DNA from: Natronospira bacteriovora
Lineage (GTDB): Bacteria; Pseudomonadota; Gammaproteobacteria; Natronospirales; Natronospiraceae
DNA length: 64,000 nucleotides
Reading direction: 5' to 3'
NCBI RefSeq assembly: GCF_030848495.1
Contig: NZ_JAVDDT010000005.1
Coordinates: 124,001 to 188,000, forward strand
Positions 8,167 through 29,784 of the stretch are shown here, piece by piece; positions within the stretch are counted from its first letter, which is position 1; each line of letters opens with the position of its first letter. The notes under the pieces are model-generated. The model ran no database searches. It saw only the letters and a list, made by a program, of their open reading frames with translations, and had not been told where the DNA came from. The position numbers and the translations under genes were made by a program.

Positions 8167-9168
8167 TCAGCCGCCAACCGACAAGCCGACGAAGAACAAG
8201 ACACTGCCATTGTGAAGAACATGAAGCAGTAACGGCGCCGCCAGGTGATGGGTTCGGGCAAAGAGATAGCAATGCAGAAGCGACAAAAGGAATATCGAGG
8301 TGTAGATGAACAGCCCTTCCACAAGATGGGCACTCAGATACTGGATATGGATGGCAACAAAGCCGGCACTGACGATCATTGCTCCCAGAATCGGGTAACT
8401 GGCCTCGAGAAAGCCCTTGTAGGCAATCCGCCTGAACAGAATTTCCTCGGCCAGGGGAGCCCCGAACACAAAGTAAAGCACCCAGAAAGGGTTCCCGAGA
8501 CCACCCTGAACGAAATTCGCCGCCGTATTCCACGGTGCATCCGATTCGGTCTGAAATGGCAGGGTGAGCAAACTGATGAGCGGCATCACCAGAAAGAACC
8601 AGCCCATAAAGACCAGGAGCGGCAAACCCAGCACCCGTGACCAGCTGCCTTTTCGCTCGAGTTGCGTCCGCTCATGGCGGCGCCACAGCAGGAAAAACAG
8701 CAACACCACGGCCACCCAGGCCAGGTGCCCATACTCTGGATGCCAGCCACCACCGATGAATCGACCACCACGGATGATCGCCACATCAGCGAGCGCGTCC
8801 AAATAGACCTCTGAATGAATGACGCCGGACTGCCAGCCACGGCTCAACCAGCCGGCTTCCGCCCATTGCACGACACAAGTCAGGCGGCTGTCCTCCGCCA
8901 GGGAGTGCCCTTCGGCACTGCTCACCTGCAGCCTGGCATCACTGCCGACGCGCTCCGACAAATGAACCTCAAGGTGGTCACAGTCATTGATACCCTGCCC
9001 GTGAACCTGAACGATCACTTCCCGCTTTTGATCCAGGACCAAGGCTGCCAGTACCGCGGTGGTACCCCAGTAGACCAGAAAAAGCATCGCCAGAATCGGC
9101 GCATACACCTTCAGAACAGCGAGCAAACCTCGCCGCCTCCCCCATTCTTCCACGATCAAAGCAACCAT
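8167..9168 (-). CDS. CPBP-family intramembrane metalloprotease with periplasmic insert
   Basis: The 333-residue protein has an N-terminal membrane helix, a periplasmic stretch of about 100 residues, then several membrane helices that form a CPBP (Rce1-like) domain. The catalytic motifs are visible: AEEILFRR (EExxxR) near residue 245, a histidine in FVAIHIQYL, and HVLHN near the C-terminus. Such glutamyl/metal intramembrane proteases process membrane peptides; substrates here are unknown. The ATG follows GGAGGGGGT, the same leader as the next accessory gene. The gene ends six bases from the convergent cyclase gene and lies inside the segment bracketed by the 125-bp direct repeat. Confidence 0.85.
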   Translation of the reverse strand: MVALIVEEWGRRRGLLAVLKVYAPILAMLFLVYWGTTAVLAALVLDQKREVIVQVHGQGINDCDHLEVHLSERVGSDARLQVSSAEGHSLAEDSRLTCVVQWAEAGWLSRGWQSGVIHSEVYLDALADVAIIRGGRFIGGGWHPEYGHLAWVAVVLLFFLLWRRHERTQLERKGSWSRVLGLPLLVFMGWFFLVMPLISLLTLPFQTESDAPWNTAANFVQGGLGNPFWVLYFVFGAPLAEEILFRRIAYKGFLEASYPILGAMIVSAGFVAIHIQYLSAHLVEGLFIYTSIFLLSLLHCYLFARTHHLAAPLLLHVLHNGSVLFFVGLSVGG

Positions 9169-9330
9169 ACCCCCTCCACGCGCGGGAAAATCAACACATC
9201 ACGCCAGCACCATAGTCCGCTAGATTCAATAAATGCGCCGACCGAAGTTTGGGCACATAAACCACCCATATAAAAAACCTCGACGGCGCATCATAAATAT
9301 TCAAGCCAGATCACAAAGGAACTCTATTCA

Positions 9331-9966
9331 TTACGGCCTTTCAAGATCTGGCATAACCTCAACGCACTTGTGGCACTCATAACCGCCTTCTCCACAAATC
9401 CCACACCACTCTGATCGGATCCCACAATTAAAGCCGTGATAACATACTTTCAATGCGTTAGCCCTGCACTGGTGCGTGCGCCACAAGCAATAACTCCCAC
9501 CTACCGTTCCGCAGACAAGCAACCCCCAAGGATTCAAACACGGCACGGGCACCGCCGAGCTCTCCAGAACCAACTGATCCTGAAGACGAGCTCGCAAGCC
9601 CGCATCCTCCATAAACTCTCTAGCGGGAAATTGATACTCGACCCCGGAGATGTCGACATTCAAGACGCCTGAAACCACGTCAATTTCATAGACAAACGAA
9701 AGACCGTCACGAGTAGCCTGACCATTGATCACAGCGACTGATAGAAGCTGACTAAGTTCATCATCACACTCAGGAAGATCATCAGGATCCACAGATTCCG
9801 GCACATCTGGAACAATCAAATAGGACTTTGGATCTTGTGATTTTGCTTTGAGTATTGCGGAGTAATATTTTTCAAACTGCTCCACTGACTGATTCTGGGA
9901 TGCGCTTGCGGACACACTAAGCGCATAAAGAAAGAGCCCTATGATCGACACGATTTTGAGCTTCAT
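9331..9966 (-). CDS. Cys-rich secreted protein of unknown function, low GC
   Basis: A 211-residue protein with a clear Sec signal peptide (cleavage likely near SASASQ, residue 22). The mature part starts as an acidic helical region and ends in a Cys-rich segment: about 11 cysteines, ten of them in the last 75 residues, including EWCGIC and ECHKC, so disulfides or metal binding are plausible. I recognise no family. A strong ribosome site (GGAGGGGGT) directly precedes the ATG. Codon use and base composition are visibly more AT-rich than the neighbours, which points to recent acquisition. It lies within the 2.3-kb segment bracketed by the 125-bp direct repeat. Confidence 0.75.
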   Translation of the reverse strand: MKLKIVSIIGLFLYALSVSASASQNQSVEQFEKYYSAILKAKSQDPKSYLIVPDVPESVDPDDLPECDDELSQLLSVAVINGQATRDGLSFVYEIDVVSGVLNVDISGVEYQFPAREFMEDAGLRARLQDQLVLESSAVPVPCLNPWGLLVCGTVGGSYCLWRTHQCRANALKVCYHGFNCGIRSEWCGICGEGGYECHKCVEVMPDLERP

Positions 9967-10341
9967 ACCCCCTCCTTTTTTTCAAGTGGAACTGGTTGCT
10001 TGAAAAAAATATCGAAACACCATTTCGTACACAATCTTTTGCGCACTTAGAAAAAGATATAAATCTGAAACACCAAAATCTATAACGAAATTTCACTTGA
10101 AGTGAAATTAAGGATATTCCTACTCATGCGAACAAGTTTTTCTTACATCGGAACACTGACTAGCGCTTGAGACTGCCACGAAATTACAGTGCAGACCTTG
10201 TTGACCCGATCACCGAAAGCAAATCTCAACGCCCTTCCTATTCATGGGGCGCATCGCTCATGTGACATAACACTGTTCTCGAAATTGACCAAGCGAATCC
10301 TCCGCTAACTGCAGCATTCGACCTTCGCGCACTCGCCTCGG
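9967..10341. other. AT-rich intergenic stretch upstream of the Cys-rich gene
   Basis: About 375 bases of low-GC DNA without a convincing reading frame. It contains an A/T-rich region that should hold the promoter of the Cys-rich gene and one perfect palindrome (10089-10109). No transposase remnant or tRNA is visible. Confidence 0.6.
10089..10109. promoter_or_regulatory. Perfect palindrome, candidate operator
   Basis: AATTTCACTT-G-AAGTGAAATT: ten-base arms around a single central base, 120 bases upstream of the Cys-rich gene start. The symmetry fits a dimeric repressor or activator site; with a one-base loop it is a poor RNA hairpin. No regulator is encoded in the cassette. Confidence 0.5.
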
Positions 10342-10472
10342 TCACCCTGAGTGGCGGTGTCACCAGCTTCACCGACCGTCGCGAGTCCGGCCCCACGCTG
10401 CTGCGCCGCGCCGACGCCGCCCTTTACGACGCCAAGGCCGCCGGCCGCAACTGCGTTCACTGGCGCCAGTAA
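10342..10472 (+). pseudogene. Duplicated 3' fragment of the diguanylate cyclase gene
   Basis: The first 125 bases match 8033-8157 exactly and encode the last ~41 residues of the GGDEF domain, then continue CAG TAA (ending HWRQ-stop). It has no start codon or catalytic motif, so it is a remnant. Its junction with the nfi gene (stop 15 bases further) looks like the ancestral convergent arrangement, with the 2.3-kb cassette inserted between. Confidence 0.85.
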
Positions 10473-10487
10473 GTTACCGGGTCCGAT

Positions 10488-11165
10488 TCACGGACGATGA
10501 CCGGCCAGGTGGTCGGCGGCGCGGATGGGTTCGGGGAGGCGGAAGCGGCCGAGACAGGCCAGGGTGAGGTCGACGGCGGTCTGCAGGCCGAGGCGGTGGC
10601 CGGGGGAGACTAAAATGGGGCGAACCCGGTCGCGACTTCTGAGGACGATGCCAATGGTTTCGCCCCGGTGAATCAACGGCTGCCGACTGCCCTTGGTTTC
10701 ATCGACTCGCGCATGCGTACCCAACAGCCGCGACTTGCCGATGCCGATACTGGGCAGGTCCGTGAGCAGGCCAAGATGACAGGCCACGCCCATGCGGCGG
10801 GGATGGGCAATGCCCTGACCATCACAGAGAAGCAGCTGCGGTGAGATCTTCAGCTGTTCCAGGGCCATCATCAGCGCCGGCACTTCCCGAAAGGACAACA
10901 GGCCCGGGACATAGGGAAAGCGGGTGGGCTGTTCCGCCACGGCTTCATCCAGGCGCTCCAGGCCGGGCAGGCTCATCACCACCACTGCGGCTCGCGTGGT
11001 GGCACCCCGGTCGGGAAAAGCCACATCCAGACCGGCCACCGTTCGTGGCGCGTCCAGCCGGTCTTCCAGGATCAGCCGGGTGGCCATGTCCCGCTGCAGG
11101 GCGATGGCCTCGCTCACCGTGAGATCCCAGCGATGATCCAGAACGCGAGTGGTGCGGTTCATCAT
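10488..11165 (-). CDS. nfi: Endonuclease V (deoxyinosine 3'-endonuclease)
   Basis: The 225-residue protein matches endonuclease V in length and motifs: VAGLDVAF with the first catalytic Asp, YVPGLLSFREVP with the Glu and the strand-separating PYVP wedge, and LLCDGQGIAHPRRMG with the third acidic residue, then GIGKSRL. The enzyme nicks DNA one phosphodiester 3' of deoxyinosine, starting repair of deaminated adenine. The start is one of two tandem ATGs (11165 or 11162) behind AAGGGAA. It is divergent from the lipoprotein hydrolase gene. Confidence 0.95.
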   Translation of the reverse strand: MMNRTTRVLDHRWDLTVSEAIALQRDMATRLILEDRLDAPRTVAGLDVAFPDRGATTRAAVVVMSLPGLERLDEAVAEQPTRFPYVPGLLSFREVPALMMALEQLKISPQLLLCDGQGIAHPRRMGVACHLGLLTDLPSIGIGKSRLLGTHARVDETKGSRQPLIHRGETIGIVLRSRDRVRPILVSPGHRLGLQTAVDLTLACLGRFRLPEPIRAADHLAGHRP

Positions 11166-11243
11166 TTCCCTTCATCTGGCTATGCTGACAGCATGGTGGT
11201 CTCACGAAGCGCTGACTGCAGTATCACAGAAGGAAATCATTCC

Positions 11244-12278
11244 GTGAAACGATTCCGGAACGCCCAGGATTCCTGCTCTGCCCTGACGCGGCTGATGCTG
11301 CTCATTGTCCTGACCGCCGTGGCGGGCTGTGCCCAGGCGCGTATTCAGGAACCGGGGCCAGGCAATGAACCACCGGGGCTGAACGACGCGGTGTTCGTGG
11401 CCGCTGACGGCTACCGCATGCCGGTAACGGTCTGGCACGCCGAAGGGGAGGTCGAGGCGGTGGTGCTGGCCCTGCATGGTTTCAATGATTTTCGCCAATC
11501 ACATACCGCACTTGGAGAATACCTCTCGGCCCGGGGCGTGACCGTGCTGGCCTACGACCAGCGGGGTTTTGGTGGCACCGAACAAAGGGGTATCTGGCCC
11601 GGTACGGAACGGCTGGTGGATGATGCGGTGCTGGCACTCACGCTCCTGCGGGCACGCTACCCGCAAACACCCCTGTACCTGCTGGGCGAGAGCATGGGCG
11701 GTGCCGTGGCACTGCTGGCCCTCGCAGACGACGACCGCCCGGCGCTTGCCGGTACCGTTCTGATGGCACCGGCGGTCTGGGCTCGGGAGACACAGCCCTG
11801 GTACCAGCGGATGGGCCTGTGGCTGGGGCTTCGCCTGACCCCCGGCATGCGGGTGAGTGCCGACTGGGTGGCGGTGGAACCCACCGATGACCCGGAATGG
11901 GCCGATTACTGGGATGAGCACCCGCTGGTCATTCATCGGGTCCGGGTGGATGCCCTGGATGGGCTGACGGAACTGATGAGCGACGCCCTGGCCACCTGGC
12001 CGGCCGTTACCGACCCGCTGCTGGTGCTCTACGGGGGCGAGGACGAGGTCATCCCGGCAGAGGCCATCTGCGAGATGATCAGGCATCACCCGGATGCCGA
12101 TGATCCGCAACGGCGCTTCGCCTTCTACCCGGACGGCTGGCATTTCCTGGCTCGGGACAGCCGGGCCGGGGAAACCAAGGCCGACATTCAGGCCTGGCTG
12201 GCCGACAGTGAAGCGACGCTGCCCTCCGGCCGTGAACTGAGCTGGCACGAGGCGCGTTCACGCCTCTGTCATCAGTAG
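11244..12278 (+). CDS. Alpha/beta-hydrolase lipoprotein (monoacylglycerol lipase-like)
   Basis: A 344-residue hydrolase. The GTG at 11244 follows AAGGAA and starts a lipoprotein signal peptide ending VAGC, so the enzyme is probably anchored to a membrane facing the periplasm or outside. The core has the family pattern LHGFNDFRQSH, the nucleophile elbow GESMGG, an acidic residue in YGGEDEVIP and a histidine in DGWHFLARD, completing a Ser-Asp/Glu-His triad. The Serine aminopeptidase S33/monoglyceride-lipase family hydrolyses lipid esters; the substrate is not determined. Its 3' end overlaps the convergent GGDEF gene by seven bases. Confidence 0.88.
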   Translation: MKRFRNAQDSCSALTRLMLLIVLTAVAGCAQARIQEPGPGNEPPGLNDAVFVAADGYRMPVTVWHAEGEVEAVVLALHGFNDFRQSHTALGEYLSARGVTVLAYDQRGFGGTEQRGIWPGTERLVDDAVLALTLLRARYPQTPLYLLGESMGGAVALLALADDDRPALAGTVLMAPAVWARETQPWYQRMGLWLGLRLTPGMRVSADWVAVEPTDDPEWADYWDEHPLVIHRVRVDALDGLTELMSDALATWPAVTDPLLVLYGGEDEVIPAEAICEMIRHHPDADDPQRRFAFYPDGWHFLARDSRAGETKADIQAWLADSEATLPSGRELSWHEARSRLCHQ

Positions 12279-13765
12279 CCGGTGGACACCGATTCCTCGC
12301 GTTCACGTCTGCGCAGGCAATCCCGTCCCGCCGCCTTGGCCTCATACAGCACATCATCCGCCTGGCGCATGAAATCGGCGGGCCGGTCACCAATGGATGG
12401 CACCGCCACCCACAACCCGATACTCACGGTGAGTTGAATATCCTCTCCTTCATATTGCAGCGGCATGTCCTTCAGGGCCTGGCGGAAGGCTTCCAGGCGA
12501 CGGGCGAACTGCTCCGGTGAACCGTCTTCCGAAAGAATGACGAACTCCTCGCCGCCATAACGGGCCACGGTTTCCGTCTCCCGCTGGAACATGTCACGCA
12601 TCAGTCCGCTGATCTGTCGCAGGCATTGATCACCCAGCGCATGCCCATGGTGATCATTGAACTGCTTGAAATGATCGAGATCGAGCATGGCGACAGCCAG
12701 CTTCAGGCGGCGACGGCGGGCCAGTGCCATGGCATGCTGCAAGCGCTCATCGAAATACAGGCGATTGAAGGTGCCGGTCAGCGCATCCTGGCGATTCTGC
12801 TGCAACAATCGCGCATTGCTCTGCCGCAACATGCTGTTGCGCAGATAGAGATGGTAGGCCCAGAAGATCAGAAGGATGGACAGTAAACCGGCCACAAGCA
12901 CCAGCGGAAACAGGATAGGGCCGTTCTCATCCATGTCGATTCTCACCGCATACCACTGGTTCAACACCCGCTGCCGATCCCCCGCCGAGATGGTGGCGAC
13001 GAGAATTTCCAGAATCTCATTGAGCACGGGCTCGTCATTGCGGCTGGCCATGGACAGGCGGGAGTCATCGATCAGGCGCCCGCTGATGCGCAGCTCCGTG
13101 TTCCGCATGCGCTGCAAGGAGTAGGCAATGCTGGCCATGTTGCCCAGCATGCCGAACAGCTCACCTTCCATGACGGCGGTCAGGCCCTCTTCATAGGACG
13201 AGACCTCGACCAGGTGGATGCCGGGATATCGAGCGCGATAGATCTCCACGAAACTGAAGCCCGCCATGATCCCCAGGGGACGATCCGCCACTTCCGCCAG
13301 ATCCCGGATGAAGGGCTGTGGCCCAAGCGTGGCGATGACGGAGGGGGTTTCCAGGTAGGGGCGGGTGAAATCCAGGTACTCCGAGCGGCTCGGGGTCTTC
13401 ATCGCCAACGGCAGCACGTCACAGTCCCGATCACGAATCCGGGTCAACGATTCCGACCAGCTACGGGTCGGTACCAGCTCCAGCTGCAGTCCGCCCCGAC
13501 GGGCAAGCAAGGCCATGAAGTCCGCACCGATGCCGATGTAGACACCCGCGGGGTTGATGGCTTCGAAGGGCAGCCAGTCCGGGTCAACACATAATCGCAG
13601 GGGACCGCGTTGAATCAGATACTGGCGATGCCGCTCGGTGAGCAGGTAGCTCCCGGCCTGGGCACTACCCTCCACGACCGGGCGGTCCGGCACATCGCCG
13701 GCGGCGACCGAGGCACCGGCCTGGGCAAACGCCAGCAGCAGCCACCAGCCCAATGCCATTGGCAT
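12272..13765 (-). CDS. Periplasmic solute-binding (SBP_bac_3) diguanylate cyclase
   Basis: The 497-residue protein begins with a signal peptide/anchor, followed by a family-3 solute-binding-protein domain (about residues 50-270: LRLCVDPDWLPFEAINPAG, IGADFMALLARR), a membrane helix (ILFPLVLVAGLLSILLIFW) and a cytoplasmic GGDEF domain with intact GGEEF near residue 403. The I-site position reads RETE, not RxxD, so product inhibition may be lost. Binding of a periplasmic ligand, perhaps an amino acid, would control c-di-GMP synthesis. The ATG at 13765 begins the signal peptide; the reading frame is open far upstream but that region is the divergent CPBP gene. Confidence 0.9.
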   Translation of the reverse strand: MPMALGWWLLLAFAQAGASVAAGDVPDRPVVEGSAQAGSYLLTERHRQYLIQRGPLRLCVDPDWLPFEAINPAGVYIGIGADFMALLARRGGLQLELVPTRSWSESLTRIRDRDCDVLPLAMKTPSRSEYLDFTRPYLETPSVIATLGPQPFIRDLAEVADRPLGIMAGFSFVEIYRARYPGIHLVEVSSYEEGLTAVMEGELFGMLGNMASIAYSLQRMRNTELRISGRLIDDSRLSMASRNDEPVLNEILEILVATISAGDRQRVLNQWYAVRIDMDENGPILFPLVLVAGLLSILLIFWAYHLYLRNSMLRQSNARLLQQNRQDALTGTFNRLYFDERLQHAMALARRRRLKLAVAMLDLDHFKQFNDHHGHALGDQCLRQISGLMRDMFQRETETVARYGGEEFVILSEDGSPEQFARRLEAFRQALKDMPLQYEGEDIQLTVSIGLWVAVPSIGDRPADFMRQADDVLYEAKAAGRDCLRRREREESVSTGY

Positions 13766-14023
13766 CCAGCCGCAACGATCCGGAATCGTTACCCGCTCCT
13801 CGCCGCGATCACCACAGACATGATCCGTCAAATTCCCGCACTCCACCCCCGGGCGCCCGCTTGCCACACCCCCTTTTGCGGACGAACACTTCAAGCATAG
13901 GCATTTACGACGCCCTTGACCATTCCAGAAGAGCTCAGAACGGCACCGTCCATCAGGTCTGGACGCCGGCGGCACAATTGCAGAACATGGGGCATCACTC
14001 CTTGAACAGAAAGGAAAGCCCTG

Positions 14024-14626
14024 GTGGCCCGCCCCGACAACGATTTCTGGCGCAGCAATCTGTTCGCCGGCCTGCTGTTTCAGGCGGCCCTGATCCCCCT
14101 GGCCCTGTTCCTGGCCTGGCCGCTGGGTCTGCCGCTGCTGGGCGCCATGCACCTGTCCTGGGCGCTGCTGTTTCAGACCCTGGCAGGAACAGCCGCCATA
14201 TTCCTTCTCTACGGCCTGCTGATGCCCTTCACCCCCTCCTGGGGGCGGGAGCTGGAGCAGAAGGTCCGCAACATGCTGACGCAGCTCTTTCGCCACCGCA
14301 GCATCCACTGGGCCCTGCCCCTGTCCATCCTGGCCGGCGTGGGTGAAGAGCTGCTGTTCCGTGGTGTACTTCAGCAGGCTCTGGCGCAGTGGCTGAACGC
14401 CCCCGTGGCCATCCTCGCCACCGGCCTGCTGTTCGGCCTGGTTCATGCCATCAGCCGAGCCTATTTCATCGTCGCCACCCTGATGGGCATCTACATGGGG
14501 CTGCTCTTTCACTGGAGCGGCAACCTGCTGCTTCCCATTCTCATCCACGCCCTCTACGACTGGCTGGCCATTCTCTACTACCGCAGCGCCCGCCTCAGGC
14601 TGCTGCGCCGGAAGGTGCTTCCGTGA
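14024..14626 (+). CDS. CPBP-family intramembrane metalloprotease
   Basis: A 200-residue membrane protein with five to six helices and the CPBP motifs GEELLFRG (EExxxR), a histidine in FGLVHAIS and the C-terminal ILIHALYD. It is the second CPBP protease in the window but is shorter and lacks the periplasmic insert of the one at 8167-9168. The GTG start at 14024 follows AAGGAA. Its stop codon overlaps the aceK start (GTGA), so the two are co-translated; no link between CPBP proteases and AceK is known to me. Confidence 0.87.
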   Translation: MARPDNDFWRSNLFAGLLFQAALIPLALFLAWPLGLPLLGAMHLSWALLFQTLAGTAAIFLLYGLLMPFTPSWGRELEQKVRNMLTQLFRHRSIHWALPLSILAGVGEELLFRGVLQQALAQWLNAPVAILATGLLFGLVHAISRAYFIVATLMGIYMGLLFHWSGNLLLPILIHALYDWLAILYYRSARLRLLRRKVLP

Positions 14627-16362
14627 AGGTCGCGACCGCACCAGCCTCGCCGGCGGTGCAAAAGGCCGCTACCCGCATCCTGCGCGCCTTCGACGATTAC
14701 AACGCTGCCTTTGCCGACATCAGCCGTCGCGGCCGTCGGCGATTTGAGGCGGGCGACCGGGCCGGCATGCAGGCGGATGCCATGGAAAGGGTTCAGCTCT
14801 ACGACGACAGCATCCGAGAGTGCCTGGCCCTCCTGGAAACGGAACTTGGCAGCCGGATTCTTTCGCGCACGTTCTGGAAGGCGCTCCGCAATCACTATCG
14901 CGAGCTCATTGAAGAGCTGCCGGATTCCGAACTCTGCAAGACCTTCTTCAACAGCAGCAGCCGCCGCCTGTTCCGCACCCGGGGTGTGGACGGCGCAGTG
15001 GAATTCCGGGCGCTGGAGGTGGAGCCCAGCACACGTTCCTCCGAACCACCGGCCATTCATCACTTTGCCATCCCCGACAGCAGCCAGAATGAACTGCACC
15101 GCTTATGGGACCGGGTCCTGGCCAGCCTGCCATTCCGCCTCGCCTGGGGCGACCGACCGGGGGATGTGGACAGACTGGCGCGGCGCCTCGGTCGGGTACT
15201 GGAAGATGACGACAAGGGATGGCCGGTGGCCATGGAGTTCATGGACACGGTTTTCTACCGGGACGGACGTGCCTGGCTGGTGGGACGGCTGTTCACCGAA
15301 AAGGATTACCGCCCCTGCGTGGTGGTTCTCAACCGCCACGCCGATGGTATCCGGGCCGAGGCCCTGTTAATCGATCGACGCTCGCTGAGCATCGCTTTCG
15401 GCTATACCCACAACTATTTTCTCGCCGATCTGCCCCGGGTTTCCGATGCCACCCTCTTCCTGCGCACCCTGCTGCCCCACAAGCCGCTGGACGAGCTCTA
15501 CACCGTGCTTGGGCGCATCAAGCAGGGAAAGACCGAGCGCTACCGGCATTTCTTCCGGCATCTGAATGCGCATGCCGATGAAAAGCTGGAGCTGGCGGAA
15601 GGTACGCCAGGACTGGTCATGGTGGTGTTCACGCTGCCCTCCTATCCGCTGGTGTTCAAGGTGGTGCGTGACCGTTTCGGGCCGGAAAAACCTTTCAAAC
15701 GCGAACAGGTATTCAAACAGTATCAGATGGTCTTTCGCCATGAACGCGGCGGACGTCTCGTGGATGCCCAGCCCTTTCGCGAACTGCGCTTCCCGCTCCG
15801 GCAGATGAGCGAGGCGCTGTTGAAGGAACTGCAATCAGACTGCCAGCAATCCATCCGGATCGACGGTGACTCGCTGATCGTGAACCACTGCTATGCTGAA
15901 CGGCGGGTACGCCCCCTGAACCTCTACCTGCGCGAGGCCGGCCCGCAGGAACAGGCAGCGGTCCTGAGTGATTACGGGCAGGCCCTCGAGGATCTCTCCT
16001 GCGCCGACATCTTTCCCGGGGACCTGTTACTGAAGAACTTCGGTGTCACGGGAACCGGTCGCGTGATTTTCTACGACTACGACGAACTGCGTCTGCTCAG
16101 GCATTGCCATTTCCGGCGCATACCGCCCGCCCGATCCGAGGAAGAGCTGATGAGCGCCGAACCCGGCTTCGCCGTCAACCCTGGCGACGTGTTTCCCGAG
16201 CGTTTTCCGGACTTCATGGGCCTGTCCACCGAGCAACTGGACGTAATCCGGCTGCATCATGCCCATATCTTCGACGCGGCCTGGTGGCGGGATCAGCGGG
16301 AAAAGGTAATGGCAGGGGGAGTGGATCACCCCCCCTACCCTTTGGGGTGCCGTCTTGTTTGA
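14623..16362 (+). CDS. aceK: Isocitrate dehydrogenase kinase/phosphatase
   Basis: At 579 residues it matches AceK length. The C-terminal kinase-like region carries ADIFPGDLLLKNFGVT and VIFYDYDELRLL, the conserved catalytic/metal-binding segments of AceK, and FTLPSYPLVFKVVRDRFGPE with the ATP-site lysine. AceK reversibly phosphorylates isocitrate dehydrogenase and so decides between the TCA cycle and the glyoxylate bypass. The aceBA genes that accompany it in enteric bacteria are absent here; instead it is coupled (GTGA overlap) to a CPBP protease. GGAAGG precedes the GTG start. The TGA stop lies within the first unit of a heptamer repeat array. Confidence 0.95.
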   Translation: MKVATAPASPAVQKAATRILRAFDDYNAAFADISRRGRRRFEAGDRAGMQADAMERVQLYDDSIRECLALLETELGSRILSRTFWKALRNHYRELIEELPDSELCKTFFNSSSRRLFRTRGVDGAVEFRALEVEPSTRSSEPPAIHHFAIPDSSQNELHRLWDRVLASLPFRLAWGDRPGDVDRLARRLGRVLEDDDKGWPVAMEFMDTVFYRDGRAWLVGRLFTEKDYRPCVVVLNRHADGIRAEALLIDRRSLSIAFGYTHNYFLADLPRVSDATLFLRTLLPHKPLDELYTVLGRIKQGKTERYRHFFRHLNAHADEKLELAEGTPGLVMVVFTLPSYPLVFKVVRDRFGPEKPFKREQVFKQYQMVFRHERGGRLVDAQPFRELRFPLRQMSEALLKELQSDCQQSIRIDGDSLIVNHCYAERRVRPLNLYLREAGPQEQAAVLSDYGQALEDLSCADIFPGDLLLKNFGVTGTGRVIFYDYDELRLLRHCHFRRIPPARSEEELMSAEPGFAVNPGDVFPERFPDFMGLSTEQLDVIRLHHAHIFDAAWWRDQREKVMAGGVDHPPYPLGCRLV

Positions 16363-21639: not shown

Positions 21640-22917
21640 TCAGAACGTGTAGGAACTGGACAGGAAGACGGTCAGGCTGCTGGCCTCCACCGTCTGCGGA
21701 TCCCGATCCACCGGCAATACCTGGCCCTGACCACGGCCAGCGGCATAACTGAAGCCCAGATCCAGCGAGGAGTTACGCGTGAAGCGGGCAACGCTGGCAC
21801 TGAAGCCCAGCATGTTGACATGATCGTATTGCACCACCTCGCTGGGCGTGTTGGCATTGTTGGTAAACAGGCCACCCCGCAAGGCCAGGTCATTGCGCAG
21901 GTAATACTCAACCCCCATGGCCGCGTTCCAGGTTGCCTCCACTTCCCGGCCATTGGCACCACGGACAGCATCATGAAAGGCGCTGTGGTAGCTGAAGTCA
22001 CCACTGATCACCAGGCGCGGGCTGTGAAACCAGGCCGCACCGACACGCCATTCCCAGGGATGATCCCGGCGAATGTTGTCACGTGCCTCCACATAGTCGA
22101 TATCGCCTTCCGGGCAAAGGGTACTTTCAGAGAGGGAGGAGCCGTGGCAGGTGAACTGGATGTAGTTTTCCGCCCCCAGAACGTTGGTCCAGCGGATGCT
22201 GCTGCCGATGGCGAGACGATCATGGGGTTCCCACATCACGCCGATGACCGGCTTGATACCCCATTCATCATTCTGGGTCTGCAGGTAGCGCCACTCGATA
22301 TCACTGTCACCGGCACCCGGCCCGGTGCCGGCATCCACCACGATCAGCTGGTTATTGATCTCTTCCTGGTCACGGAAATGGAAATAGAAGCTGGCACCCA
22401 CGGAAAGCTGTTCATTGACCCGAATGGCATAGGAAGGCCCAAGCTTGTACACCCACTGGTTGTTATTGAGATTGATGGTGAAGCGATCACGATTGGGAAG
22501 CTGGGTGAAGGTCTGGTCCTGATCCTCCTGGATGGCATCGGTGACCACATAGGAAAAGCCGAACACGCCCGGCCCGATGGGCTGGGTGATGCCGAAAAAG
22601 TTCGGAATCAGCGTGCCGGATTCACGTTGCCAGTCCTGCCCCTCACCCAGCACATCCTTGTAGACCACGCGGGTGCTGTGCCAGGCATTGACGCTGCCGG
22701 ACAGGTTCAACTGGTCGGCGTGCACGATGCCGGCCGGGTTGTAATACAGCCCGGAGGGATCGTCCGAGATGGCCGTATAGGCACCGCCCATGGCCGATGC
22801 CCGGTTGCCGATCAGCACATCCCGGTAATGAAATTCATCCGCGCTGACCACCGGTGCCACCAGTGACCCCGTCAGCAGTAGCGACAGACACCACCGCAAC
22901 GGCAGCTTACGGCACAT
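21640..22917 (-). CDS. FadL/OmpP1-like outer-membrane transport protein
   Basis: About 425 residues with a signal peptide (MCRKLPLRWCLSLLLTG...) and the OMPP1/FadL N-terminal pattern GNRASAMGGAYTAISDDPSG followed by LYYNPAG, the N-terminal plug of long-chain fatty-acid channels. The remainder alternates strands with aromatic girdles and ends SSSYTF, a good BAM recognition signal. It should take up fatty acids or other hydrophobic compounds. The ATG at 22917 gives the neatest signal peptide and overlaps the M48 gene by 11 bases; a GTG at 22959 has a stronger site (GAGGAG, seven-base spacer) and would add 14 residues. Confidence 0.88.
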   Translation of the reverse strand: MCRKLPLRWCLSLLLTGSLVAPVVSADEFHYRDVLIGNRASAMGGAYTAISDDPSGLYYNPAGIVHADQLNLSGSVNAWHSTRVVYKDVLGEGQDWQRESGTLIPNFFGITQPIGPGVFGFSYVVTDAIQEDQDQTFTQLPNRDRFTINLNNNQWVYKLGPSYAIRVNEQLSVGASFYFHFRDQEEINNQLIVVDAGTGPGAGDSDIEWRYLQTQNDEWGIKPVIGVMWEPHDRLAIGSSIRWTNVLGAENYIQFTCHGSSLSESTLCPEGDIDYVEARDNIRRDHPWEWRVGAAWFHSPRLVISGDFSYHSAFHDAVRGANGREVEATWNAAMGVEYYLRNDLALRGGLFTNNANTPSEVVQYDHVNMLGFSASVARFTRNSSLDLGFSYAAGRGQGQVLPVDRDPQTVEASSLTVFLSSSYTF

Positions 22918-23740
22918 GCCGCTGGAAACGGGCCTGTCGTCGATATCCCTCGATAGCACTCAGATTCTCCTCGTCCTGCAATGCCGTCAGGCGCTTCAGC
23001 CGCTCGGAAGTCGCCGGGTGGGTATCAGCCACCTCGTCCACGGCACGTCTGTCCGCTGATTCACTCAGGCGTTGAAGAAAGCGCCCCAGACCTCCCGGAT
23101 CATAACCGGCACGCGCGGCCAGCAGAACCCCGTCCCGATCCGCTTCGAACTCGTCCTCGTGACGAAGGCCTTCCTCGAACAGCACCGACAGCACCTGATC
23201 CACGGCCTGGGAGAAGAACACCTGGGCCACTTCCGTGGCCCCTCCGAAGAAGCGCGTCAGGCCGGCCATGGGTGAACTTTCCGGCGCCCGGATACCCAGG
23301 GCCTCGACAATATGGCGGCGATCCACGTGAGCGATCTCGTGGGCCAGCACAGCAGCCAGTTCGGCTTCATCCTCCATCAGCGCCAGCGCCTCGCTGGTAA
23401 TGAATATGTAGCCGCCGGGCGCGGCATAGGCATTGACCTGCCCGGACTCGATGACTCCGAAATGAAAGTCCAGATCCGGCCGCGTACCGTGCAGGGCCAG
23501 GGCCACGCCGACGCGATTGACGTAACGCTGCAGCTCATCGTCGGGATGCAGCGCGTGTCGCGCCAGAATTCGCGCCGCCACTTCACGGCCGACCCGGATT
23601 TCGGCACGCTCGTTGGCTTCCGCTTCGGCCACCGGCTGGATCTGGTGCAGGCGCTGGCGAGGGTGGGGATCGCTGGCCAGCAGGGTCGTGGACAGGGCCA
23701 GCCCGGCGACAGCGGCAATGATGGTTGCCAATGGCCTCAT
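22907..23740 (-). CDS. Periplasmic M48-family metalloprotease
   Basis: The 277-residue protein has a signal peptide ending near LLAS and an M48 peptidase domain: AVLAHEIAHVDRRH provides HExxH and EFEADRDG the third zinc ligand. It resembles soluble BepA/LoiP-type proteases that police outer-membrane protein assembly, but it lacks an obvious TPR region, so it is nearer LoiP in size. The ATG follows GGAGGAGACGCA and overlaps the stop of the SH3 protein gene. In this operon it sits just ahead of two outer-membrane barrel genes, which fits a quality-control role. Confidence 0.9.
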   Translation of the reverse strand: MRPLATIIAAVAGLALSTTLLASDPHPRQRLHQIQPVAEAEANERAEIRVGREVAARILARHALHPDDELQRYVNRVGVALALHGTRPDLDFHFGVIESGQVNAYAAPGGYIFITSEALALMEDEAELAAVLAHEIAHVDRRHIVEALGIRAPESSPMAGLTRFFGGATEVAQVFFSQAVDQVLSVLFEEGLRHEDEFEADRDGVLLAARAGYDPGGLGRFLQRLSESADRRAVDEVADTHPATSERLKRLTALQDEENLSAIEGYRRQARFQRHVP

Positions 23741-24240
23741 TGCGTCTCCTCCGCCTCCTCTTCCAGCAGGAACTCCAGTGCCTCATCACCCGAGACCGCC
23801 AATGCTTCCAGGCGCCTGAGCGCTTCCACATCCAGATTGGGATCATCCAGCAGACGCTCATCTTCCTCCACGCCGCGGATGGCTCCGGCCGTGGTCACGG
23901 CGGAAGCCCGACGCCGGGCGCTGGCATCCATTTCCGCGGCCCGATCCAGATGGCTCTCCCGACGGTTGGGGGGCGTGTCACGCAGAATCAGTGCCGGCAT
24001 CCAGCCCTCCAGCTCACCCACACGGATGCGATGCCAGCTGTCACCGGCCTCCAGCACCTCCACTTCCATACCCCGTGCCAGGCGCTCAAGGGGTTCGCCG
24101 CCAAAGGCCGGCTGGGCCATCAGGGCCGCGTTCTGACTCTGCACGAAAACCACCCGCTCCGCTTCATCCGCGGCCATGGCCGGCCCGCACCAGAAGCTAC
24201 CCCAGATTCCCACTACCAAGATCACGATGATGAATCGCAT
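23737..24240 (-). CDS. Secreted SH3-domain (bacterial SH3_3-like) protein
   Basis: A 167-residue protein with a signal peptide (MRFIIVILVV... to AMAA) and one bacterial SH3-like domain (about residues 30-90: VQSQNAALMAQPAFGG, LARGMEVEVLEAGDSWHRIR, EGWMPALILRD). The C-terminal third is helical and acidic. Such domains often bind peptidoglycan or cell-surface ligands. The ATG at 24240 has GGGAG eight bases upstream; an ATG at 24255 overlaps that site and is less likely. The gene is 33 bases after the cyclase and overlaps the M48 gene. Confidence 0.8.
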   Translation of the reverse strand: MRFIIVILVVGIWGSFWCGPAMAADEAERVVFVQSQNAALMAQPAFGGEPLERLARGMEVEVLEAGDSWHRIRVGELEGWMPALILRDTPPNRRESHLDRAAEMDASARRRASAVTTAGAIRGVEEDERLLDDPNLDVEALRRLEALAVSGDEALEFLLEEEAEETQ

Positions 24241-24273
24241 CCGCTTTGCTCCCATTCGCTTCTTCTGTTGAAT

Positions 24274-26448
24274 CTATTTGCTGTCCAGTCGGTGCACACC
24301 GTCCCAGTCCGGATCCGGGGCCGCGTACATGTAGTGACGACAACGGGCCAGGAAAATCCGGCGCAGTGGGTCGTCCTCCGGGAGGCGCCCCCAGGCCCGG
24401 GCCGCACCTTCCCAATCCCTGGCCAGGTAGGCTTCCCAGGCCGTTTCCGTCACATCGCGGATCGCCTCGGCGCCGGCCCGGCGCCGCGGGTCATCCTCGC
24501 CGCTTGCCAGGGGCCGCCAGATGGCAATGGCCTTCTCCTTGCCCTTGACCCGCACCCGGTCCACCAGGGCACAGATCACATCATCACCGGCCGCGGCCCG
24601 GGTGGTTTCGGAAATCAGCACCGGGCAGTGGTAATGGCTGGTCAGGCCCTCGATTCGGGACGCCAGATTCACGTTGTCCCCGATCACAGTGTAGTCAAGC
24701 TTGCGATCGGAGCCGATGTTGCCCAGCACCACCGAGCCGGTGTGCACGCCAATTCCGGTATTCAGGGGTGGCCACCCTTCCGCAATTAACTGCTGATTGA
24801 GCTGCTCGCCACAGCGCTGCATGGCCAGGGCTGCCCGCACCGCCCGCCGTGCATGATCCTCCACCCGGATGGGTGCACCCCAGAAGGCCATGATGGCGTC
24901 GCCAATGAACTTGTCCAGGGTGCCTTCCTGCTCGAAGATGGCCTCGGTCTGCACCGAGAGATAGCGGTTGAGCAGCGACACCACCTGCTCCGGCGGATAG
25001 TTCTCGGAAATGCCGGTGAAGCCCCGGATATCGGAAAACAGAATGCTCATCTGTTCCGCCGTACCCACCTCCGCGCTCAGGTGCTGGTCATAGCGATCGA
25101 CCACCTCGGCCAGCACGGCCGGCGACACATACTGGGACAGCATGCGCCGGACCCGGCGCTTGTCCCGGCCCTCGGTGACCGACACGTAGGCCAGGCAGGC
25201 CACGCCACTGAGAACCACACTGCCCAGAGGCGCGGCCATGTCCAGCACCCAGTTGAGGGAGAAGGCCCACCAGGCCGCCGACACATGAAGCAGAATGAGC
25301 ATCAGGGGCAGCAGGAGCTGCAGGCTGACTCGGCCGGTCATGAAAGCCGCCGCCGCCAGCAGGGCGTAGACAAGGACCAGCAGACCGGTGACCTGGCTTG
25401 TGACCGGACGCAGAAAGTCACCCTCCAGCAGGTTGCCAGCCAGGCTCATGTGGATTTCCACTCCGGGGGTGCGGCTGGACAGGGGGGTGTGCTTGATGTC
25501 GTGCAATCCCACGGCCGAACCACCAATGAACACGATGCGGTCACGGAACTCTTCCGGATCAATGATCATGCGTTCCGGCTCGCCCTGGTGCAGGCGTTGC
25601 AGGCTGTCGAATACACCGCCGATGGAATAGCTGGGTATCTCGCCGTAGAAATTGGCCAGAACCCGGCCATCCTCGCCCACGGGCACACGCCAGTCACCCA
25701 GCTCGAGATGGCGGCCGCTCTGGCGGGCCGCTTCCAGGCCCAGATCCCGCAGGGCAGTGACCGAAAGGGCGGGAAAGATGTCATCCCGATAACGGAAGAA
25801 GGGCCGTACGCGACGATAAACGCCATCGTCATCGGCATCCAGACCCACCGCCCCCAGCCCGGCCGACATCTGGTGCAGGCCGTCGATGGGAAGGTGAACG
25901 CTGTTGCGCCCGAAGTCCGTGATGCCCTCCACGCCGTTGAGTGCGTGTTGCTGCCGGACGGACTCGGGCAGAGGGGGCGCCTCCACTACCTCCTCGCCTT
26001 CATCCGGCTGTTCGGTGATGATCTGAATGGCATGGTGCACATTGCCGGCAGCGGCCGTGGCCATCATCAGGGCCTGATCCTCCGCGCTGGGCTCATGTCG
26101 CCCGCCCGATTCCAGCCACTGATTCTCGGTCAGCAGGATATCGAAGACCACGGCACGAGGATGGCCAAGGGAGAGAAAGTCGAGCAGGTCGGCATACACC
26201 GAGCGGGGCCAGGGGAAACGGCCGAGGATCGGATTGAGCTGGGCCAGTGAAGCCTCGTCAATCAGGATCAGGGCCAGCTCATCGGGAATCGCCGCATCGG
26301 CCCGCAGCGCCTTGACCCGGGCGTCATAGCTGATCCATTCCAGTCGCTGCAGGCCGCCGCTACGCTCCACGGCCATGACCAGCAGAGCGCTGATCAAGCC
26401 AATCAGCAGCAGCCAGCGCAACTGTTTTCTGTGTCGGGACAACTGCAT
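24274..26448 (-). CDS. CHASE2-domain class III adenylate cyclase
   Basis: The 724-residue protein has an N-terminal membrane helix, a large periplasmic CHASE2 sensor (about 35-340, VFIGGSAVGLHDIKHTPL is typical), three further membrane helices, then a class III cyclase catalytic domain. Metal-binding Asp residues are in FSDIRGFTGIS and FIGDAIMAFWG, the adenine-specifying Lys in LDKFIGD, and the transition-state Asn/Arg in IGDNVNLASRIEG, so an active adenylate cyclase is expected. A ~70-residue helical tail follows. It is first in the six-gene minus-strand operon and lies divergently to a cyclic-nucleotide-binding EAL gene. Confidence 0.92.
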   Translation of the reverse strand: MQLSRHRKQLRWLLLIGLISALLVMAVERSGGLQRLEWISYDARVKALRADAAIPDELALILIDEASLAQLNPILGRFPWPRSVYADLLDFLSLGHPRAVVFDILLTENQWLESGGRHEPSAEDQALMMATAAAGNVHHAIQIITEQPDEGEEVVEAPPLPESVRQQHALNGVEGITDFGRNSVHLPIDGLHQMSAGLGAVGLDADDDGVYRRVRPFFRYRDDIFPALSVTALRDLGLEAARQSGRHLELGDWRVPVGEDGRVLANFYGEIPSYSIGGVFDSLQRLHQGEPERMIIDPEEFRDRIVFIGGSAVGLHDIKHTPLSSRTPGVEIHMSLAGNLLEGDFLRPVTSQVTGLLVLVYALLAAAAFMTGRVSLQLLLPLMLILLHVSAAWWAFSLNWVLDMAAPLGSVVLSGVACLAYVSVTEGRDKRRVRRMLSQYVSPAVLAEVVDRYDQHLSAEVGTAEQMSILFSDIRGFTGISENYPPEQVVSLLNRYLSVQTEAIFEQEGTLDKFIGDAIMAFWGAPIRVEDHARRAVRAALAMQRCGEQLNQQLIAEGWPPLNTGIGVHTGSVVLGNIGSDRKLDYTVIGDNVNLASRIEGLTSHYHCPVLISETTRAAAGDDVICALVDRVRVKGKEKAIAIWRPLASGEDDPRRRAGAEAIRDVTETAWEAYLARDWEGAARAWGRLPEDDPLRRIFLARCRHYMYAAPDPDWDGVHRLDSK

Positions 26449-26679
26449 GACATCCGCCCGGAACCCTCAAGGAATGGCTTCAGCATAAAGGAATACGGCC
26501 GCGGCGGCCTCCCCCTGCATGGGGGAGCCATGCCACCCCCTCCGGACGGGGGCTTGACGCGGACCTCCGCGAGGAGTGAGCTGTACACCGCAGCCGCGTG
26601 CTACAGGCCCAGGGGAGCTACACTGGTGCAAGGACGTGTCCACGCCGACACACGAAGGGATACGACAAGAGGGGAAGAC
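26449..26679. other. Divergent promoter region with two G/C hairpins
   Basis: The 231-base gap between the cyclase and the CNB-EAL gene must hold both promoters. Two short inverted repeats of C5/G5 type lie near 26509-26527 and 26536-26552. I could not fix a convincing -35/-10 pair. Confidence 0.4.
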
Positions 26680-27879
26680 ATGAGTGAGCAGGTACCGCAC
26701 AAGGTGTTTGGCGCGGGCGAGCGCATATTCGAACGGGGGGATGCCGGCCAGGAGGCCTACCTCATCCAGAGGGGCAATGTGGAGATTTCCACCGACCAGG
26801 GGGGCAAGAAGGTGGTCATCGCCAATCTCGGGCCCGGCGAGGTCTTCGGCGAACTGGCCCTGATCAGCCACCAGGCGCGCACAGCCTCGGCCATGGCGAC
26901 GGAAGAGACCAGCACCATGGTGATCACCCTGGATCGCCTGCAGTCGGCCATCGACCGGGCCGATCCCCTGCTCCAGACCCTGCTACGCGGCAATCTGGGA
27001 CGCTTCATCTGGACCCAGCGCTTCATGCTCCAGCACGCCTCGCCCCAGTCCGGGGACGGTTCCCTGGAACGCCAGGCGCGGCGGGAGGAAGAAGTGGAGG
27101 CCGACATCAAGCGGGGCATTCACTCCCGTGAGTTCGAGCTCTTCTACCAGCCCATCATCGACCTGCGCGAAGGCTGGGTGGCCGGATTCGAGGCCCTGAT
27201 GCGCTGGCGTCACCCGGAAAAGGGAACCGTCTCCCCCGGGGAGTTCATTCCGGTGGCCGAAGCCACCGGGCAGATCGTCCCCATGGGCTGCTGGGCCCTG
27301 GAAGAAGCCCTCAATGCCCAGAAACGTTTTCAGGAAATCGTCGAGCCCCATGGCCGCCCGCCCCTGTTCATGAGCGTGAACGTCTCGGGGCGCCAGCTGC
27401 TGGAGCTGGATGAAATCGAGAAACTGGGCGCGGTGGTGGCCCGTTCCGGGATGGATCCCCAGTACATCAAGCTGGAGATCACCGAATCCCTGCTGGTGGA
27501 TGAACCCATGCACGCCGCCGTGGCGCTGGAGCAGCTGCGCAACAAGGGAGTACGCCTGGCCATTGATGACTTCGGCACCGGCTACTCCAGCCTCAGCTAC
27601 CTGCATCTCTTCCCGCTGGATACCCTCAAGATCGACCGCTCCTTCGTCTCGGACATGGTTCACGACCCCCGCCGGGAACGCATCGTGCGCGCCATCTCCC
27701 GCCTGGCGCGGGATCTCGACCTGAACATCATTGCCGAGGGGGTGGAGAACGACGAGGAAATGGCCAGCCTCAACCGCTTCGAATGCGATTACGTCCAGGG
27801 CTTCCACCTGGCCCGCCCCCAGACCGCCGACCAGATCGCCGAACTGCTGGCCGGCAAGCCGGTGTTTCCAAGGCCCTGA
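26680..27879 (+). CDS. Cyclic-nucleotide-binding EAL phosphodiesterase (copy 1)
   Basis: The 399-residue soluble protein has a CRP-like cyclic-nucleotide-binding domain (about 5-120) with an intact phosphate-binding cassette FGELALISHQARTASA (Glu58, Arg67), and a C-terminal EAL domain. The EAL motif reads FEALMRW (171-173), followed by ITESLLV, DDFGTGYSS, IDRSFV and IIAEGVEN, so the metal- and substrate-binding residues are present and it should hydrolyse c-di-GMP. The ATG follows GGGGAAG. It is divergent from the adenylate cyclase gene and convergent with a close paralogue across a repeat block. cAMP or cGMP as ligand is inferred. Confidence 0.9.
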   Translation: MSEQVPHKVFGAGERIFERGDAGQEAYLIQRGNVEISTDQGGKKVVIANLGPGEVFGELALISHQARTASAMATEETSTMVITLDRLQSAIDRADPLLQTLLRGNLGRFIWTQRFMLQHASPQSGDGSLERQARREEEVEADIKRGIHSREFELFYQPIIDLREGWVAGFEALMRWRHPEKGTVSPGEFIPVAEATGQIVPMGCWALEEALNAQKRFQEIVEPHGRPPLFMSVNVSGRQLLELDEIEKLGAVVARSGMDPQYIKLEITESLLVDEPMHAAVALEQLRNKGVRLAIDDFGTGYSSLSYLHLFPLDTLKIDRSFVSDMVHDPRRERIVRAISRLARDLDLNIIAEGVENDEEMASLNRFECDYVQGFHLARPQTADQIAELLAGKPVFPRP

Positions 27880-28520
27880 GGTTTGGGACCAGGAAATGGA
27901 CACGAAATGAAAGACGGAAAGAGTATTAGCCACAGATGAACACAGATAAACGCAGATGTTGGGCCGTGCTTGACGGGGTGCCGTGCGGCTTCGGCGGGGC
28001 CGTGCTTGCGGGTGGCTCGGGGATTTTGACCACGAAATTAACACGAGATGGGCGCGAAATAAGACCTGGCACGGTGGGTGCTGACGGCCCGCTGTGGGAG
28101 CGGCTTTCAGCCGCGATTGCAATCTTTCGGTTGGCACGCCGCTAAACCGATACCCCCTGTAGGCGCGGATTCATCCGCGCAATGGCTTGAATTCGACGTT
28201 TGATTCTCTAATTGGGATCGGTGCAATCCGTGATGCACCTCAATGAATGGTGGGGCGTCGGATTTGGGCCATTGCGCGGATGAATCCGCTCCCACGCTGC
28301 CTATAGCCACCCCCCGTCACATCCGCAGGCACGGCCCCTCCGAAGCAGCACGGCGCCCCCCACGCACGGCCCAACATCTGCGTTCATCCGTGTTCATCTG
28401 TGGCCAATAATCTTTTGTCTTTTTATTTCGCGTCCATTTAGCGTCCATCTCGCGGCTAAAGGTTTTTAAGGTTTTCATCTCGTGTGCATTTCGTGTCCAT
28501 CTCGTGGTCCAGCCTTCCCC
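27880..28520. repeat. Composite palindromic repeat block 1
   Basis: This 640-base gap has no gene. From the left it carries ACGAAATG-type oligomers, TTAGCCACAGATGAACACAG, a REP-like hairpin (GTGGGAGCGGCTTTCAGCCG) near 28098, the 148-bp element at 28153-28300, then CACGGCCCCTCCGAAGCAG, and the complements of the first modules in reverse order. The whole reads as a giant imperfect palindrome between the 3' ends of the two convergent CNB-EAL paralogues. Confidence 0.9.
28153..28300 (+). repeat. ~148-bp element bounded by inverted REP hairpins, copy 1
   Basis: It starts CCCCCTGTAGGCGCGGATTC and ends with the inverted form GGATGAATCCGCTCCCACGC; each end is itself a small palindrome. The core (TTTGATTCTCTAATTGGGAT onward) is nearly identical to copies at 35035-35184 and, inverted, 41304-41452. 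The arrangement resembles a BIME/REP doublet. Confidence 0.85.
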
Positions 28521-28524
28521 GCCG

Positions 28525-29784
28525 TCACCAACGCGCCTGCCGCATCTGCAGCAGGCGGCGGGCTTCGCGGAAAGAGGCGGGGCGGGACATGAGATAACCC
28601 TGACCGCTGTCGCAGCCCACTTCCCGCAGGGCCGAGAGCTGGGTGTTGCGTTCGATTCCCTCGGCAATGGTCTCCATGCCCATGTCGCGGGCCAGACCAA
28701 CGATGGCGCGCACGATGCGATAACTCTTCGGATCCCGTCCCATGGTGGCAACGAAAGTCTGGTCAATCTTGAGGGCATCCAGCGGGAACTCGTGCAGATA
28801 GCTGAGGCTGGAGTAGCCGGTGCCGAAATCATCCAGGGCAATGCGAACGCCATACTCCCGCAGGAGTTGCAGCGCTACCCGGGCATGGGCCGGATCGTCC
28901 ACCAGCAGGGATTCGGTGACCTCCAGCTTGATCAGGGCGGGATCAATGCCCGAGGCCTTGATGGTGTCGCCCAGGCGATCGATCTCCTGCAGCTCGAACA
29001 GTTGCCGACCGGAGATGTTCACGCTCATGAACAGGGCATCACGACGCGGTTCGCTGGTCAGGGAGTCGCGGACTTCGGCCAGGGCTGTCAGCGGTGGACG
29101 CGGCCCGGCGCCGGCATTGCCCACCAGCAGCTGGAAGGACTTGAGGGCGTCGAGGGCCTCCTTGAGTACCCACTGGCCGATGTCGACGATCTGCCCGGTG
29201 CGCTCGGCCACGCCAATGAAGCCATCGGGGTACACCAGCCCCCGAGTGGGATGACGCCAGCGCAGGAGGGCCTCGAAACCCACCGTCCAGCCCCCTTCGA
29301 GGGTGATGATGGGCTGGTAATGGAGTTCGAACTCCCGCTGCGCCATGGCCCGGCTGATTTCCTTTTCCAGGGCCAGATCCGCCCTGGCCTGGTGCTCCAG
29401 GCTCTGACCGCCATTGAGGCTGTCGGCGTTCTGAAGCATGAACTGCTGGGTCCACTGGAAGCGCCCGAGGTTGACCTGCAACAGCTTGCGCAGGAGGGGG
29501 TTGGCCTCGCGCAGGGCCCGTTGCAGCTGGGCCGCATTAATGCTGACCAGTTCCACGTCGCGCAGGGCCGTGGCCGTGGCCGTTCGGGCCTGTCGATTGA
29601 TCAGGGCCAGTTCGCCAAAGAGATCACCGCTGCCAAGACGGGCGATGACCACCTTGCGGCCGGCCCGCTCGGTGGATATCTCCACGGAACCCTGTTCTAT
29701 GAAATAGGCGTTGTCGCCCTCATCCCCCTGGGCAAAGATTTCTTGACCCGCGGCAAATCGCTTGCGCGGCAACTCCTCGGCCAT
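28525..29784 (-). CDS. Cyclic-nucleotide-binding EAL phosphodiesterase (copy 2)
   Basis: A 419-residue paralogue of the protein at 26680-27879 with the same order: cyclic-nucleotide-binding domain (cassette FGELALINRQARTATA) and EAL domain (FEALLRW, VTESLLV, DDFGTGYSS, IDQTFV, TIAEGIER). Catalytic residues appear intact. It differs by an insertion of about 28 residues (GAGPRPPLTALAEVRDSL...) before LFMSVNISGRQ. The ATG at 29784 has GGGGAG upstream; the frame is open 11 codons further but without a site. It follows purT by 98 bases on the same strand and is convergent with copy 1. Confidence 0.9.
   Translation of the reverse strand: MAEELPRKRFAAGQEIFAQGDEGDNAYFIEQGSVEISTERAGRKVVIARLGSGDLFGELALINRQARTATATALRDVELVSINAAQLQRALREANPLLRKLLQVNLGRFQWTQQFMLQNADSLNGGQSLEHQARADLALEKEISRAMAQREFELHYQPIITLEGGWTVGFEALLRWRHPTRGLVYPDGFIGVAERTGQIVDIGQWVLKEALDALKSFQLLVGNAGAGPRPPLTALAEVRDSLTSEPRRDALFMSVNISGRQLFELQEIDRLGDTIKASGIDPALIKLEVTESLLVDDPAHARVALQLLREYGVRIALDDFGTGYSSLSYLHEFPLDALKIDQTFVATMGRDPKSYRIVRAIVGLARDMGMETIAEGIERNTQLSALREVGCDSGQGYLMSRPASFREARRLLQMRQARW

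Follow-up and report, generated by a model that had tools for sequence, protein, structure and literature searches.

A CHASE2 adenylate cyclase gene beside two genes for predicted cyclic-nucleotide-gated c-di-GMP phosphodiesterases in Natronospira bacteriovora

Does a membrane-bound cyclase encoded next to phosphodiesterase genes also supply the nucleotide that controls their products? This question is raised by a locus in a 64,000-nucleotide stretch of DNA from Natronospira bacteriovora, hereafter the window (contig NZ_JAVDDT010000005.1, 124001-188000; genome 3.0 Mb), in which a gene for a CHASE2 class III adenylate cyclase (AC) lies beside two genes, EAL1 and EAL2, whose products join a cyclic nucleoside monophosphate (cNMP)-binding (CNB) domain to an EAL domain. 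A preliminary description of the DNA had proposed that cyclic AMP (cAMP) made locally could switch the hydrolysis of cyclic di-GMP (c-di-GMP). The part of this proposal that concerns the proteins is supported by the hallmarks of cNMP-activated phosphodiesterases (PDEs) in both EAL proteins and by the adenylate-type character of AC, and the part that makes the circuit local or dedicated is so far not supported. The locus was compared with two other genomes of the same genus, G001 and G002, and with G003, an 83%-complete genome of a sister genus. Its features are as follows.

24274..26448, minus strand: AC, a CHASE2 class III adenylate cyclase of 724 amino acids (aa), assigned from Pfam, relatives in the PDB and catalytic residues
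26449..26679, no strand: divergent intergenic region between AC and EAL1, 231 bp (~132 bp in G001 and G002), from a three-genome alignment
26680..27879, plus strand: EAL1, 399 aa, with a cNMP-binding domain (aa ~8-93), a C-helix, a linker helix and an EAL domain (aa ~142-380), from Pfam, phmmer and AlphaFold
28525..29784, minus strand: EAL2, 419 aa, a paralogue of EAL1 with the same two domains, from Pfam, alignment and tree

All three genes are intact. The divergent arrangement of AC and a cyclic-nucleotide-binding EAL protein given in the preliminary description is correct, with AC starting at 26448 (minus) and EAL1 at 26680 (plus) across the 231 bp gap. The second such paralogue is likewise real and can be placed more precisely, since EAL2 lies on the strand opposite EAL1 and converges with it over 645 bp (~220-355 bp in G001 and G002). 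The locus therefore comprises three transcription units, and tandem co-transcription of EAL2 with EAL1 is ruled out. The preferred start of EAL1 is ATG 26680, preceded by the ribosome-binding site GGGGAAG, and that of EAL2 is ATG 29784, with GTG 29817 a possible alternative.

Two phosphodiesterases and an adenylate-type cyclase

By every sequence and structural-model feature that we tested, EAL1 and EAL2 are PDEs of the kind represented by Bd1971 of Bdellovibrio bacteriovorus, which is the sole full-length solved relative (6HQ4/5/7, cAMP- and cGMP-bound) and the best solved match of EAL1, aligning with it end to end in phmmer at 2e-69 with ~34% identity. In both proteins a cNMP-binding domain precedes one EAL domain, with no GGDEF, and their Pfam matches lie far above the curated cut-offs (EAL 1e-68 and cNMP_binding 3e-20 for EAL1; EAL 1e-67 and cNMP_binding 2e-24 for EAL2). 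They are 56% identical to each other, and EAL2 has a ~20-residue insert inside its EAL domain. An alignment of 36 CNB-EAL proteins, made up of EAL1, EAL2 and 34 homologues, shows the ten residues E171, N234, E266, E269, D296, D297, K317, D319, E353 and Q373 (EAL1 numbering) to be invariant (36/36), in agreement with the earlier statement that all EAL catalytic motifs are kept; degenerate, non-catalytic EAL domains are ruled out by the full residue set in both proteins. Across the three species of the genus the ratio of nonsynonymous to synonymous change (pN/pS) is 0.28-0.38 in the CNB domains and 0.20-0.31 in the EAL domains, so both domains of both PDEs are under purifying selection.

The ligand pocket is equally well preserved. 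The cassette FGELALI...QARTA that had been noticed in EAL1 and EAL2 is present in both. The numbering of EAL1 coincides with that of Bd1971, in which E58 holds the ribose, R67 and S68 the phosphate, R108 caps the base, and c-di-GMP hydrolysis rises ~8-fold with cAMP or cGMP (PMC6717892). F56, E58, A60, R67, A94 and R108 are identical in the two proteins, with M59, S68, D63 and L109 of Bd1971 replaced by L59, T68, S63 and F109 in EAL1. Within the alignment, E58 and R67 occur in 36/36 proteins and R108 in 34/36, EAL1 and EAL2 included. The Bd1971 authors predicted that the domain-swapped sensor needs a small residue (A, G, S or T) at position 94 (PMC6717892); EAL1 and EAL2 have A94, and A, S or T is found in 36/36 proteins. 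In an AlphaFold model of EAL1 (pLDDT 90) the C-helix spans residues 96-119 and the linker helix residues 129-148 (96-111 and 136-157 in Bd1971), and the top matches of the model are 6HQ4/5/7 (Foldseek 7e-41; VIA Z 34.6-35.5 over 364-371 residues). The root-mean-square deviation from Bd1971 is ~12 Å, because the model is of a monomer and its domains are placed differently relative to each other; the model is therefore evidence for the fold and not for an activity state. Taken together, these features make it likely that EAL1 and EAL2 hydrolyse c-di-GMP under cNMP control.

The cyclase is similarly complete, as had been described from the sequence. Its Pfam matches to CHASE2 (4e-52) and Guanylate_cyc (8e-24) are both far above the curated cut-offs, and its architecture runs from an N-terminal transmembrane helix through CHASE2 (aa 22-366) and C-terminal transmembrane helices to the cyclase domain (aa 463-641). 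The catalytic set comprises the metal-binding D473 and D517, the transition-state residues N594 and R598, and K513 with T587. In an alignment to solved cyclases the K513/T587 pair matches CyaB (3R5G) and CyaC (1WC0), and the guanylate cyclase 2W01 has E/G instead. By this pair AC is of the adenylate type and is predicted to synthesize cAMP; guanylate cyclase identity was rejected on the same ground. The cyclase domain (pN/pS 0.29-0.34) is more constrained across the three species than CHASE2 (0.42-0.46).

The genome of the window encodes two further class III cyclases, a search of it for a class I adenylate cyclase found none, and it contains a CRP equivalog scoring 305.8 bits against the NCBIfam cut-off of 266. 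Since three cyclases could make cAMP and at least one protein besides the PDEs, the true CRP, could read it, the cAMP is probably shared. There are also two genes of the flagellin family, ~46 GGDEF loci and ~25 EAL loci, and c-di-GMP could plausibly govern motility or attachment. Elsewhere in the window are two diguanylate cyclases (12272-14641, minus; 6466-8160, plus), one an SBP_bac_3 fusion and one with PAS domains.

In the mechanism that we propose, EAL1 and EAL2 would show little activity as long as the N-terminal cNMP domains of the dimer are empty. Binding of a cyclic nucleotide there, most likely cAMP, would make these domains close on the C-helix and bring the two EAL barrels into an active dimer, which would then cut c-di-GMP to pGpG. 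AC would be one source of this cAMP, its periplasmic domain sensing some envelope or outer-membrane state, and a rise in cAMP would lower c-di-GMP and also act through CRP.

Dedicated circuit or neighbours in the genome

The arrangement of AC, divergent EAL1 and convergent EAL2 is kept exactly in G001 and G002, where it sits in a wholly collinear block of ~12-20 kb that also retains genes for FadL, M48 and SH3 proteins, PurT, a small outer-membrane protein and PepN. Collinearity alone thus accounts for the retention of the trio across the genus, and there is no special conservation of the adjacency itself. The region has been rearranged in G003, where an ATP-grasp protein is encoded divergently to AC, EAL1 is gone, and the one CNB-EAL gene, of EAL2 type, sits ~5 kb from AC, on the same side of the operon as FadL. 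The tree places the EAL1/EAL2 duplication before the G003 split and groups the G003 copy with EAL2 (support 99/97), so EAL1 was probably lost in G003 or lies in the missing part of that genome. The CNB-EAL gene of the sister genus converges with a gene for a multi-pass membrane protein (L058:6456-7415), MHYT-like by eye, which has no Pfam match and a weak NCBIfam match to T2SS_HK.

The divergent region between AC and EAL1 contains an inverted repeat, CCCCC-N3-ATGGGGG (26511-26525), that is kept in 3/3 genomes of the genus amid poorly conserved flanking DNA. The window holds one exact copy, and the count with one mismatch is near chance; the repeat could be an operator or a hairpin. As this GC-rich element is the sole one shared across the three genomes, the promoter region supports no CRP-box argument. 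A separate, dispersed intergenic repeat, CCACAGATGAACACAGATNNACGCAGATG, is present six times in the window, where none would be expected (27886-28510, 35322, 41183, 50818 and 50958), and the gap between EAL1 and EAL2 contains a large inverted repeat with two CCACAGATGAACACAGATNNACGCAGATG copies in its arms and an inner hairpin, GCGGATTCATCCGCG, resembling a REP element.

Several findings weigh against the proposed mechanism. Outside the family, we surveyed up to ~10 kb on each side (some contigs being shorter) of 27 Bd1971-type genes from 24 genomes, found by a genome search with an alignment of CNB and linker; searching with the full CNB-EAL alignment mostly retrieved ordinary EAL proteins, with only four loci matching across both domains. 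None of the 27 genes has a class III cyclase next to it. The base-edge contact Asn113 and the D63-R110 clamp of Bd1971 are not conserved in EAL1 or EAL2. Threonine at the cassette position equivalent to 68 goes with cGMP in protein kinases, and with Thr68 in the cassette the ligand could be cGMP or both nucleotides. Finally, two genomes of one other genus (G101, locus L205; G224, locus L204) carry a CNB-EAL gene, and no class I or III cyclase was found in either, so the ligand of the family need not always be home-made cAMP.

A class III cyclase was encountered within 10 kb of one of the 27 genes (~9.5 kb away, in G376), against 1.04 expected by chance. Cyclase adjacency is therefore not a feature of the Bd1971-type family; at this locus it is a family-level trait within a largely collinear block. 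The divergent pair, whose conservation the preliminary description had proposed to check, is kept in G001 and G002; in G003 the cyclase and CNB-EAL genes lie ~5 kb apart, and elsewhere their linkage is no commoner than chance. At the level of whole genomes in the class sample, class III cyclases occur in 20/23 CNB-EAL genomes versus 218/346 others (Fisher p = 0.02), a difference to which genome size may contribute. In a different setting, locus L214 of G133 has a cNMP-domain protein directly beside a class III cyclase reading frame (8200-11917); no EAL domain was detected in it, and this may be another linked cyclase/cNMP-effector pair.

The neighbours of AC on its other side have a wider distribution. 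They lie directly downstream (21640..24255), with short gaps or overlaps.

23737-24255, minus strand: SH3-like protein, Pfam match below the curated cut-off
22907-23740, minus strand: M48 metallopeptidase, from Pfam
21640-22959, minus strand: FadL/OMPP1 outer-membrane barrel, from Pfam

AC is probably co-transcribed with the M48 peptidase and the FadL-type barrel. The order AC-SH3-M48-FadL is common to seven genomes of several families (that of the window, G001, G002, G003, G040, G051 and G054). Close AC orthologues in G040, G051 and G054, which belong to other families, keep SH3-M48-FadL and have no adjacent CNB-EAL gene (G054 has one, on a different contig from the AC orthologue), so the ancient partners of AC are the envelope genes, and the PDEs are later neighbours. 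Outside the window, the CHASE2-AC-SH3-M48-FadL/OMPP1 operon was seen at loci L058, L062, L063 and L228. The conserved operon points to an envelope signal for AC and seems a more promising guide to its input than the EAL pair.

These observations bear most directly on the reading that AC belongs to an envelope operon, that its cAMP is read by CRP, and that the EAL pair next door draws on the general cAMP pool. We regard this as about evenly balanced between true and false. The seven-genome operon, without adjacent CNB-EAL genes in three genomes of other families, argues for it, as does the convergent orientation of EAL2, which cannot share a promoter with AC. Set against it are the survival of linkage within ~5 kb through one rearrangement and our own estimate that chance alone would put one of the three cyclase genes right next to either CNB-EAL gene, in a genome of 3 Mb, with a probability well below 1%.

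A dedicated local circuit, in which AC feeds EAL1 and EAL2 specifically, through co-regulation and perhaps co-localization, along a periplasm-to-c-di-GMP line largely apart from CRP, is possible but not favoured, and we consider it doubtful. The divergent adjacency in 3/3 genomes of the genus and the retention of a CNB-EAL gene near the AC of the equivalent operon in rearranged G003 are consistent with it, and a proven precedent exists in Xanthomonas campestris, where the class III cyclase XC_0250 makes cGMP that stimulates the linked cNMP-GGDEF protein XC_0249 (PMC3770947). Against this circuit stand the collinearity of the entire flanking block within the genus, the absence of EAL1 from G003 with an ATP-grasp gene divergent to AC there, the survey counts outside the family, and the presence of two other class III cyclases and CRP in the genome. 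A fuller version, a relay in which an envelope-sensing AC transcribed with the M48 peptidase and the barrel acts on two cNMP-gated PDEs that differ in threshold, such that an outer-membrane signal lowers c-di-GMP, appears unlikely; if true, it would be a mirror-image counterpart to the cyclase/GGDEF pair of Xanthomonas.

Activation by cAMP is the natural reading, because EAL1 and EAL2 carry the hallmarks of cNMP-activated PDEs and AC is of the adenylate type. That the ligand is instead cGMP, or both nucleotides equally, with Thr68 contacting guanine as in cGMP-dependent kinases, is improbable: the ARTA cassette with its threonine, the response of Bd1971 to cGMP at least equal to that to cAMP (PMC6717892), and the >60-fold preference of the XC_0249 cNMP domain for cGMP (PMC3770947) speak for it, and the adenylate-type K/T pair of the linked AC in place of guanylate-type residues, the lack of any identified guanylate cyclase in the genome of the window, and serine at position 68 in the EAL2 orthologues of G001 and G002 speak against it.

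Known systems and meaning for c-di-GMP signalling

EAL1 and EAL2 resemble Bd1971 (Cadby et al. 2019, PMC6717892) in domain order, E58/R67/R108, the small residue at 94, the C-helix and linker helix, and the EAL catalytic residues. They differ in being two paralogues, in Thr68 for Ser68, in lacking equivalents of Asn113 and D63-R110, in the EAL2 insert, and in lying beside a cyclase gene, a linkage that the available part of the Bd1971 report does not describe for Bd1971. The Bd1971 authors note cNMP-EAL homologues across several phyla (PMC6717892). The locus resembles the Xanthomonas pair in layout, with the gene for a class III cyclase linked to that for a c-di-GMP enzyme under cNMP control; that system uses cGMP, GGDEF synthesis and a TPR-repeat cyclase, whereas here we find an adenylate-type CHASE2 cyclase and EAL hydrolysis in two copies. 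Because the output and probably also the messenger differ, the trio is not a member of the XC_0250/XC_0249 type.

For the cyclase itself, a functional parallel is found in Sinorhizobium meliloti, where the CHASE2 cyclases CyaD1, CyaD2 and CyaK work with the outer-membrane barrel NsrA and the CRP-type regulator Clr, and where the available portion of the source reports no CNB-EAL protein (PMC13001267). The likeness, a CHASE2 class III cyclase with an outer-membrane barrel and a CRP-family reader, is one of function; by analogy, the FadL-type barrel of the AC operon may be a reasonable place to seek the signal. Direct switching of c-di-GMP enzymes by cAMP is also found in the HD-GYP PDE Tlr0485 and the GGDEF protein Lcd1, both cAMP-activated (listed in PMC8846402), which differ from the present proteins in using a GAF sensor rather than a cNMP/CRP-type one and in their catalytic domains.

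PDEs of the EAL type gated by cyclic nucleotides are already known from Bd1971, and what is new here is the cyclase-neighbour arrangement alone, confined to one small lineage. Our survey shows that PDEs of the Bd1971 type are scattered through the bacterial class, that their ligand pocket hardly varies, and that cyclase adjacency is not a family trait. Few examples are seen of a direct allosteric connection from cAMP to c-di-GMP, and a linked cyclase with two cNMP-gated PDEs would be a compact natural example in which to study local versus global specificity of cAMP.

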